NCBI RefSeq assembly: GCF_014252955.1 | Contig: NZ_JACMIA010000001.1 | Location: forward strand, 1,488,001-1,552,000 | DNA: 64,000 nt | Reading direction: 5' to 3' | DNA from: Stappia sp. 28M-7 | GTDB lineage: Bacteria; Pseudomonadota; Alphaproteobacteria; Rhizobiales; Stappiaceae | Shown here: positions 32,331-34,659 of the stretch, piece by piece | Layout of the letters: every line of letters begins with the position of its first letter | Numbering within the stretch: position 1 is the stretch's first letter | Position numbers and translations under genes: made by a program | The notes under the pieces: model-generated | Told to the model about the DNA's origin: nothing | The model's database searches: none | The model's input: the letters and a program-made list of their open reading frames with translations, nothing else

Positions 32331-32405
32331 TGGGGCGTAGCCAAGCGGTAAGGCAGCGGTTTTTGGTACCGCCATGCGCAGGTTCGAATCCTGCCGCCCC
32401 AGCCA
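32331..32405 (+). tRNA. tRNA-Gln (TTG)
   Basis: 75 nt including encoded CCA. Acceptor TGGGGCG/CGCCCCA, anticodon stem GCGGT/ACCGC with loop TTTTGGT (anticodon TTG), T-arm GCAGG-TTCGAAT-CCTGC. A TATAC -10-like box is at 32311-32315. The prophage starts shortly downstream without disrupting it. Confidence 0.97.
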
Positions 32406-32603: not shown

Positions 32604-33188
32604 TCAAGCGGCGCGGTCGGCCGGCCCTGCCGCGCCCGGCTTCAGGCAGGCCTGCGGCGCGGTGTTCAGAAACCCGTGCTCGGCAAGGTGCCACATGGTT
32701 TTCGTCAGCAGGTCTAACCCCATTGGTGCCAGTGCGCGCCTCCACAACGTGGCGGCCGTTTCGCCCGGCTCCACGAAACACCAGTCCTGATAGACGACCG
32801 CGCCGTCATCCACCCCGTCCTCCAACTGGTAGACCGTCCCCCCGGTCACGCGGTCACCGGCGCTTATGGCCCCCTCAACGGCGTGGCGGCCCTTGTGAAG
32901 AGGCAGCAACGACGGGTGGTAGCCTACCGACCATGCCGCCGACGCGCGGAGCCACGCGGGCACGTACAGGAACGAGTGCGCTGAAACGAGAAGGTCGACG
33001 GCCGGGAGCCCATAGAGGTCCCCGATAGCACCTGCGCAGATGAAGACGTCGGTTCCCGAAATGTGGGCCGCCTGGGCAAGCCGATCTTCCGGCGACGGGG
33101 CGATGACGTACTCGACCGCACCGAACGCCCTGGCCGCCGCAAGCACTTCACTGCCGAGCCACTTCTGGCCGATGATCGCAATCTTCAT
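32604..33188 (-). CDS. formyltransferase-fold protein in phage com/mom-like operon
   Basis: A 194-aa protein of the formyltransferase fold (PurN/Fmt catalytic domain). Seen: an N-terminal Rossmann-like start MKIAIIGQKWLGSEV, GYHPSLLPLHKGRHAVEGAI with the catalytic-type His91, GGTVYQLEDGVDDGAVVYQD with Asp127. The Asn of the usual Asn-x-His pair is Gly89 here, so either chemistry or assignment differs from tetrahydrofolate formyltransferases. It overlaps the ABC-GNAT gene by ATGA, so it belongs to the same operon. It probably formylates, or transfers a related one-carbon group to, the base or intermediate made by that protein; this is inference. Confidence 0.82.
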   Translation of the reverse strand: MKIAIIGQKWLGSEVLAAARAFGAVEYVIAPSPEDRLAQAAHISGTDVFICAGAIGDLYGLPAVDLLVSAHSFLYVPAWLRASAAWSVGYHPSLLPLHKGRHAVEGAISAGDRVTGGTVYQLEDGVDDGAVVYQDWCFVEPGETAATLWRRALAPMGLDLLTKTMWHLAEHGFLNTAPQACLKPGAAGPADRAA

Positions 33189-34294
33189 TGTCCCGACTCC
33201 ACATATCTAAAGCCCTGCACGGCCCGGAAGTGCCCCCCGTATCCCGTTCCTGCGTGCTTTGTGCGTCGGATGCTGGCAGCGGATTTGGCCTTGTTCGCCC
33301 CGTAGAGGTTGCAGGAAACCTGCGCCCAATCCCGATGACGGCGGAGCGCGGCTGCAAGCCCCGGATGGGAGGTGTGGAAGAGGGTCGGCATGGGTTTGCC
33401 GAATCTGTTGTGCCCCCTGCGCCAGCGGGCGCAGATTGCATTGAGAAATCGGAGGCCGACCCCCGCGCCTTGCCATTCGGGCATGATCACAAGACGACAG
33501 GCGCGCGCCTCCACCATGCCCGGCCGGGTCGAGAATGCTACGTGCGCCACCGGGGCGCCCTCGACACACCCGACGTAGCACGTCGCGGCGATCATCTTCG
33601 GCAGCTTCAGATAGTGATGCGGCTCAAACTGCGGCCAAAACTCCCAGCCGCATTCGTGGATGTCGAGGGCGATGTCTGGTCGCCGTCGAAGATACCTCCC
33701 GGTGAACTGGCCGCTCGCGGTGTCATAGACCCAATCGGGCGAGAGCCAGTCCACAATGTCACGATGGCACGACAGCAGCACCGCTTGGCCGCTGGTTCGA
33801 CGCCAGGCCTTCGCGAAGGCAAGCGCGCCGATGCGAGCTATCTGGCGGTCGACGACAGAGGTGAACTCGTCCACCACCACCCGTGCCGGGCGCTCGCATA
33901 CGATGCGGGCGAGATCGGCCCGAAAGCGCTCGCCGTTGGAAAGGACGTGATACGGCCGAAGCCAGGCCGGCACGCTGCCAAGGCCGACAGCCGCAAGAGC
34001 GGCCGTCACCTCGTCAAACGCCCCATGGGGCGCGATAGCATCGACAATCGGGGCATCGGCCGGCCAGCCGGCCGCTTCATAGAAAGCACCGGCGCCGAAG
34101 ATCTCGCGGCCGATGGATGTCTTGCCGGAGCCGGACGGGCCCACGACGAGCCCGATAGACCAGTCGTCACCTTCAACCGGAAGATCGGCCGCAATGTCGA
34201 CGTTCGCGCCCGTCTCGACATTGAAGAGGGACTGCACCCGTGCGGCGCGGTAGCTGTCGAAGTGGTCGCAGCGGTGGCGGATGTCGATCCTCAT
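33185..34294 (-). CDS. ABC-type ATPase fused to a Mom-like GNAT acyltransferase
   Basis: A 369-aa two-domain protein. Residues about 20-205 are an ABC-class ATPase with no membrane partner: Walker A GPSGSGKT (52-59), signature LSNGER (118-123), Walker B VVVDEF (140-144), H-loop His177. Residues about 210-369 are a GNAT domain with the acyl-CoA loop QGAGVG (275-280) and HHY (226-228), which I also associate with Mom-type proteins. Mu Mom is a GNAT-related enzyme that modifies adenine in phage DNA. The fused ATPase may recognise or remodel DNA. It starts within an ATGA overlap of the preceding small gene. Confidence 0.85.
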   Translation of the reverse strand: MRIDIRHRCDHFDSYRAARVQSLFNVETGANVDIAADLPVEGDDWSIGLVVGPSGSGKTSIGREIFGAGAFYEAAGWPADAPIVDAIAPHGAFDEVTAALAAVGLGSVPAWLRPYHVLSNGERFRADLARIVCERPARVVVDEFTSVVDRQIARIGALAFAKAWRRTSGQAVLLSCHRDIVDWLSPDWVYDTASGQFTGRYLRRRPDIALDIHECGWEFWPQFEPHHYLKLPKMIAATCYVGCVEGAPVAHVAFSTRPGMVEARACRLVIMPEWQGAGVGLRFLNAICARWRRGHNRFGKPMPTLFHTSHPGLAAALRRHRDWAQVSCNLYGANKAKSAASIRRTKHAGTGYGGHFRAVQGFRYVESGQ

Positions 34295-34476
34295 GTGACC
34301 ACCACCTTGAGCCGGGCGCCCTGAAGGGCCTTCAAACCCTCGTAGAGGGCACGTTGAGAGGCTTCATCAGGGCAGACAGCAATAACGCCATACTGCTCGC
34401 GGTAGCGGTTTCCGGGTGGTACGCCGGGGCATTTCGGGTCAAGCGGCGGGAGATCGGATTTGGCTTTTCCTGCCAT
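34291..34476 (-). CDS. 61-aa protein between com and the ABC-GNAT gene
   Basis: A small protein with Pro-rich N-terminal half (PPLDPKCPGVPPGNRY) and a C-terminal stretch, YGVIAVCPDEASQRALYEGL, of a kind I have seen in phage proteins but cannot name. The ATG at 34476 lies 2 nt after the com stop and its own stop overlaps the ABC-GNAT start (ATGA), so it is a coupled member of the operon. Upstream in-frame extension to 34620 overlaps com and is a shadow. Confidence 0.7.
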   Translation of the reverse strand: MAGKAKSDLPPLDPKCPGVPPGNRYREQYGVIAVCPDEASQRALYEGLKALQGARLKVVVT

Positions 34477-34478
34477 GG

Positions 34479-34640
34479 TTATTCCCTGTCCGGCAGCTCG
34501 GGGCGCTCGGGTTGGGGCTCGGCAGGCCTCAGTGCATTGATGGTCCCGCAGCGCGGGCACTTGATCTCGATCACCCCACATATCGCGTACCGCTCGGCAC
34601 GCATCAAGAGGCGTCGGCATATGCAGCGGATGGACTCCAC
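34479..34640 (-). CDS. com: Com-family zinc-finger translational activator
   Basis: A 53-aa protein starting with GTG (complement 34638-34640), with GAGG 6 nt upstream. Sequence features match phage Mu Com: start (V/M)ESIRC, RRLLMRAE, then GVIEIKCPRCGTIN with the second knuckle Cys28/Cys31. Mu Com binds mom mRNA and opens its translation start; here the downstream genes are the 61-aa ORF and the Mom-like ABC-GNAT. The first knuckle reads Cys6-Ile-Cys8, one residue shorter than the C-x-x-C of Mu Com, and an extra Cys21 is present. Zinc binding may therefore use a different set. Confidence 0.8.
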   Translation of the reverse strand: MESIRCICRRLLMRAERYAICGVIEIKCPRCGTINALRPAEPQPERPELPDRE

Positions 34641-34659
34641 TCTTGACCTCAAATAGACA

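Follow-up and report, generated by a model that had tools for sequence, protein, structure and literature searches.

Does the operon at one end of a Mu-like prophage of Stappia sp. 28M-7, in the position where Mu carries com-mom, take the place of Mom, and what would it attach to DNA? The window analysed here, 64,000 nucleotides long, holds the operon as four minus-strand ORFs at 32604-34652, which encode a Com homologue, a 61-aa protein, an ABC ATPase-GNAT fusion (ABC-GNAT) and a formyltransferase-fold protein (FT). A gap of 2 nt separates com from the 61-aa ORF, and overlaps of 4 nt join the 61-aa ORF to ABC-GNAT and ABC-GNAT to FT, an arrangement that bears out the earlier note's claim of four coupled genes. 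The cassette sits at the tail-gene end of the prophage: eight of the ten same-strand ORFs scanned upstream have PHROGs matches at E <= 1e-5, with functions that include DNA transposition protein, endolysin, terminase, portal, major head and tail proteins, and a tRNA-Gln lies beyond FT at 32331-32405. ABC-GNAT is single-copy in its own genome. Of 87 genomes from the family, 5 contain true relatives (E <= 1e-151), its own genome counted, and the nearest named relative, at 84% identity, also comes from Stappia.

The central enzyme (33185..34294, minus strand, 369 aa) consists of an ABC domain at about residues 1-200 and a GNAT domain at about residues 203-369. Residues 1-366 are covered by phrog_11143, a family of 'unknown function', at E 7.4e-152. 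The Pfam matches of both halves of the window protein fall below gathering cut-offs. Among 31 aligned relatives, Walker A, the signature, the Walker B Glu, the D-loop and the H-loop are invariant in all 31, and the GNAT acyl-CoA loop Q-G-x-G-x-G and the F-x-x-H-Y-L motif are invariant or nearly so; PF00583 is matched by all 27 GNAT domains of alignment A2 (best 1.1e-9). The AlphaFold2 model has a pLDDT of 85, and Foldseek relates its ABC part to transporter-type ABC domains. The window protein is a phrog_11143-family member, an ABC ATPase with intact motifs fused to a GNAT. The two domains are separate overlapping ORFs, split at the domain border (residue 199-202), in 13 of the 80 viral loci listed (L168, L170, L173-L176, L179, L181-L184, L186 and L188). 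There is also an archaeal COG named 'ABC-type ATPase fused to acetyltransferase'; no paper naming it was found in the partial literature collection searched.

The earlier note had looked to a relationship between this GNAT domain and Mom, and the profile comparisons do not support one. Alignment of the two by hhalign gave a probability of 1.4% (P 0.037), the window GNAT had no match to PF25680, the Mom family, at E <= 0.5, and only 2 of 27 GNAT members touched that profile (best E 0.016). With the GNAT domain alone as the Foldseek query, the best matches were Ard1/RimI/SpeG-type GNATs, including Naa60, and the Mom structure 8bv8 was absent among the 50 listed of 1302 matches. Descent from Mom thus has no support from hhalign or Pfam. 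By Foldseek the domain resembles protein and polyamine acetyltransferases more than Mom, and at the level of sequence the outcome is one that the note itself had named as counting against its proposal.

Evidence on function came instead from the surroundings of related genes. Loci were gathered by similarity to the window ABC-GNAT, taking at most the best 80 per scan, and all counts describe that sample; own-genome copies, duplicate loci and weak ABC-only matches were removed before counting, leaving 138 loci. The family is widespread: IMG/VR has at least 595 stretches related to it. A plasmid search returned one weak match only, on the Delftia sp. KV29 conjugative plasmid NC_019312.1 (43423-44410), where part of the cassette, 70% identical in DNA, has a 'formyltransferase family protein' annotated beneath it.

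The 61-aa protein (34291..34476, minus strand) has no Pfam match. It matches phrog_28816 (E 4.9e-10) and, in a single BLASTP pair, gp1 of Gordonia phage NHagos in its tail region (E 3e-9), with a weak match to Jace gp85 (E 0.001). Together with alignment A1, these matches identify it, as far as sequence comparison goes, as a stand-alone version of the C-terminal tail found on the ParB-like proteins encoded ahead of ABC-GNAT in other phages. PF02195 matches six of seven such upstream proteins at E 3.5e-4 or better; the exception is NHagos gp1, which is labelled ParB in its record. ParB-domain proteins are described as accompanying DNA-modification enzymes in the accessible part of PMC12783734. 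An anti-CRISPR identity for the 61-aa protein was rejected: it matches the ParB tail, and 'acr candidate' is a mere annotation in Porphyromonas gingivalis phage records, among them one for a tail peptide (L057:5876-6004) that looks misannotated.

Upstream of the tail stands Com (34479..34652, minus strand), 57 aa from a TTG start with an in-frame GTG four codons further on. It is a genuine Com homologue, as the earlier note had claimed, matching PF10122 at E 1.3e-9 and 37.8 bits (cut-off 22.9), and no other PF10122 match occurs in the genome. Its first zinc knuckle is C-x-C, one residue short, as in one other locus (L041), so that it lacks the two CxxC knuckles that 32 of 34 distinct Com ORFs from related loci possess; the window copy may be a weakened Com. 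In 35 of the 39 loci with Com, the tail ORF has at least one candidate start codon, by prediction, within com. We liken this to Mu, where mom starts within com, and such candidate starts would fit translational control.

Com is nonetheless only one of two front modules. Among 127 loci with at least 500 nt of upstream sequence, 52 have ParB and tail, 39 Com and tail, 23 the tail only and 13 neither. Com as an essential partner was rejected, since ParB-like genes take its place and it occurs in none of the 49 loci where the tail ORF is long (ParB-type). The same front modules also precede Mom. Com stands before Mom in 31 of 32 Mu-type loci and ParB in 67 of the 72 Appa-type loci whose upstream DNA was long enough (eight further loci being too short); neither occurs at any of 24 P. 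gingivalis-type Mom loci, and the tail profile was found in 0 of the 80 Appa-type loci listed. By these counts, and with the tail missing there, Com and the ParB N-domain serve either enzyme and the tail belongs to ABC-GNAT. A tRNA-Gly(ccc) adjoins the ParB-Mom pair in Microbacterium phages Appa and Bush (L103:4654-4728, L108:3654-3728), possibly linking glycine to the source of the Mom group.

Direct comparison of phage genomes revealed the two enzymes alternating at one position. The genomes of P. gingivalis phages 008a and 012a match at 88% identity as far as the end of the final tail gene, and at 82% over the last 93 nt; between these flanks, 008a carries 2010 nt encoding tail, ABC-GNAT and FT, whereas 012a carries 881 nt with a Mom-like gene whose identity to Mu Mom is 33% (E 1e-19). 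Arthrobacter phages EastWest and Martha are 70% identical over 1.15 kb ending within ParB, and again 79% and 67% identical past the enzyme. Their ParB N-domains align but the C-terminal parts do not, and tail-ABC-GNAT follows in EastWest where Mom follows in Martha. At com, Pseudomonas JD024 (Com-Mom) is 70% identical over 206 nt to Komp_PAO1_1 (Com-tail-ABC-GNAT-FT). The DNA-modification role that the earlier note had assigned to the operon is thus sustained by context, through a Com-led order like that of Mu com-mom and through the way Mom and tail-ABC-GNAT trade places at the same locus in each of two phage groups. Aeromonas phage PX29 (L067, L106) has both a Mom-like gene and ABC-GNAT, and exclusion between the two is therefore not strict.

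The last gene, FT (32604..33188, minus strand, 194 aa), follows ABC-GNAT in 76 of the 108 loci with at least 700 nt of downstream sequence. In a tree built by a quick method from single-ORF proteins at an 88% identity cut (117 of 146 rows, split-ORF loci left out), all FT loci fall in one branch of 80 rows with SH-aLRT support of 100. FT is present in 64 of 69 assessable members of this branch, versus 0 of 34 outside it; the five members with enough sequence and no FT are L042, L112, L120, L137 and L143. The two genes also adjoin in Gordonia phages (10 records), Komp_PAO1_1 and P. gingivalis phage 008a. The suggested co-occurrence of ABC-GNAT and FT behind com holds for FT, a true partner within one clade, and fails for Com as the defining neighbour, with a ParB-like gene there instead in 52 of 127 loci. 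The FT homologue of Gordonia phages (gene 3, e.g. H56) is recorded as 'tRNA-methyltransferase' and looks misannotated.

FT has the formyltransferase fold (PF00551, E 8.6e-18), as had been proposed, and its type can now be specified. Its closest PDB sequence is 1s3i, a 10-formyl-THF dehydrogenase (E 1.3e-15); such dehydrogenases occupy the first six rows of matches (1.3e-15 to 3.9e-14), followed by Fmt and PurN. The Asn of the N-x-H motif is catalytic, and the PurN active site reads N-x-H-D. In the window, GYHPSLLP replaces N-x-H-P-S-L-L-P, and the dehydrogenase motif is IYHPSLLP, with Ile aligned to the catalytic Asn. Across 81 distinct FT motifs this position is Gly/Ala in 73, Ile/Val in 8 and Asn in none, and the His and D-x-G are retained in all 81. 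The best match and the Asn-less YHPSLLP motif place FT, by sequence, with the hydrolase-domain class of 10-formyl-THF dehydrogenase, and by analogy FT would be active without the Asn. Assignment as PurN was rejected: FT scores 46.4 bits against the TIGR00639 equivalog cut-off of 150.1, its PDB relatives are dehydrogenases, and the Asn occurs in 0 of 81 motifs.

Outside the FT branch, one clade carries other candidate supply genes. In the Jace-like branch (11 rows, support 95), 10 of 11 members have an aspartate decarboxylase (PanD) gene and/or a CoA-transferase-III-like gene; in a scan with Jace, PanD occurs in 14 and the CoA-transferase-III-like gene in 18 of 39 loci. PanD matches PF02261 at E 2e-33. 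CoA-transferase activity is doubtful, because the PF02515 match (E 2.2e-8) spans only about 104 of 366 profile positions. Seven near-identical viral contigs (L294-L299, L304) have two ABC-GNAT genes with PanD and the CoA-transferase-III-like gene between them. At FT-less loci of other branches, no recurrent donor-like gene appeared among the ten neighbour ORFs scanned, which included one peroxiredoxin-like (AhpC/TSA) gene and one ORF touching N6_Mtase; clustering of 421 neighbour ORFs chiefly brought out the ParB-like gene, at 19 loci.

Gene content, co-conservation, alternation with Mom and motif states are read directly from the sequences, and on balance they favor a Mom substitute: a phage DNA-modification cassette that places an acyl group, furnished by a partner gene, on phage DNA. 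DNA is likely to be the target. Com would act on expression as in Mu, the tail peptide would dock on or control the ATPase half, and the ATPase would spend ATP to engage or remodel DNA, while the GNAT half, with its canonical acyl-CoA loop, would move the acyl group onto a base amine. A neighbouring gene would provide the unusual group, which for the window cassette is probably formyl-derived. It is very likely that FT works in the same pathway as ABC-GNAT. FT may take formyl from 10-formyl-THF, perhaps onto the CoA thiol to give formyl-CoA; in the Jace-like clade, aspartate decarboxylase and the CoA-transferase-like protein may yield beta-alanyl-CoA. Whether FT precedes the GNAT as acyl supplier is an evenly balanced matter. 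We favor that order for three reasons: in another clade FT has its place taken by genes that would likewise yield an acyl precursor, the acyl-CoA loop of the GNAT is retained, and 10-formyl-THF dehydrogenase passes formyl to a phosphopantetheine thiol, the same chemical end as CoA.

The opposite order, acylation and then formylation, was the one put forward earlier; it survives as one of two possibilities and is not the favored one. ABC-GNAT would add an aminoacyl group (glycyl-like or beta-alanyl-like) to the base, and FT would formylate the free amine on DNA. FT-fold relatives do formylate amines (GAR, Met-tRNA, amino sugars), PanD of the Jace-like clade would yield the amino acid beta-alanine, whose amine is free, and the tRNA-Gly(ccc) beside ParB-Mom hints at glycine chemistry in Mom. 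We nevertheless consider this two-step hypermodification unlikely: no gene for making an aminoacyl-CoA is seen beside FT, FT is absent from the PanD clade, and in the dehydrogenase hydrolase domain, FT's closest solved relative, formyl goes to water or a thiol and not to an amine. Less likely still is modification of a host protein or tRNA, for takeover or counter-defence, in place of DNA. The GNAT fold does best match the protein and polyamine acetyltransferases Ard1, RimI, Naa60 and SpeG, and phage GNATs can act on RNA polymerase according to the accessible part of PMC7824862; alternation with Mom at the same locus behind the same ParB or Com partner argues against such a target, as does the association of ParB-domain proteins with DNA-modification enzymes in the available text of PMC12783734. 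Finally, that FT is an independent metabolic gene for purine supply merely adjoining ABC-GNAT, as PHROG and record annotations reading phosphoribosylglycinamide formyltransferase would imply, is highly improbable given co-conservation in 64 of 69, nearest PDB relatives that are dehydrogenases and not PurN, and loss of the Asn in 81 of 81.

Extending the Mom-substitute reading, we tentatively envisage a modular phage DNA-acylation machine, in which an ATP-driven GNAT with exchangeable acyl-supply genes and Com or ParB front modules replaces Mom. Supply would be formyl derived from formyl-THF here, and beta-alanine with a CoA-transferase in the Jace-like clade. The product in Stappia could be an N-formyl (or formyl-derived) base made via formyl-CoA, for which we found no report. 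The gene set in Mom's place suggests a second, still uncharacterised phage route to decorated DNA, possibly formyl-derived; if true, a widespread family would provide an enzymatic route to modified phage DNA besides Mom. The clade-specific supply genes turn an 'unknown acyl group' into named candidates that are open to testing by mass spectrometry in isolated phages, and matched natural pairs come from the exchanges with Mom.

The core idea is already known, because Iyer, Aravind and colleagues (2013) predicted that an ABC ATPase-GNAT acylates a DNA base, a prediction restated in the accessible part of PMC7824862; the ATPase that the earlier note saw as going beyond Com-Mom is thus prior art, and the comparative findings are what is added here. 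The system described there, of Tenacibaculum phage pT24, has the same domain pair and matches the window ABC-GNAT at 30% identity over 96% of its length, and the accessible account mentions neither formyltransferase, Com, ParB tail nor Mom swap. A full-text search of a partial collection found no paper tying ABC-GNAT systems to formyltransferase, ParB or aspartate decarboxylase.

Further systems resemble parts of the cassette. Like FT, the N-terminal hydrolase domain of 10-formyl-THF dehydrogenase (ALDH1L1/FDH) has xYHPSLLP and DxG and no Asn, but FT stands alone, with neither carrier nor dehydrogenase domain. The actinophage ParB-Mom pairs of Appa and Martha share the upstream ParB N-domain with the ParB-tail-ABC-GNAT loci, but lack the tail and have Mom as the enzyme. 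Mu com-mom is itself Com-led, lies at the right end of a Mu-like phage, employs a GNAT fold and alternates with the cassette at one locus. It differs in having no ATPase, tail or FT, and in a GNAT with no detected sequence relation to that of the window, which keeps the QGxGxG loop not seen in the Mom alignment.
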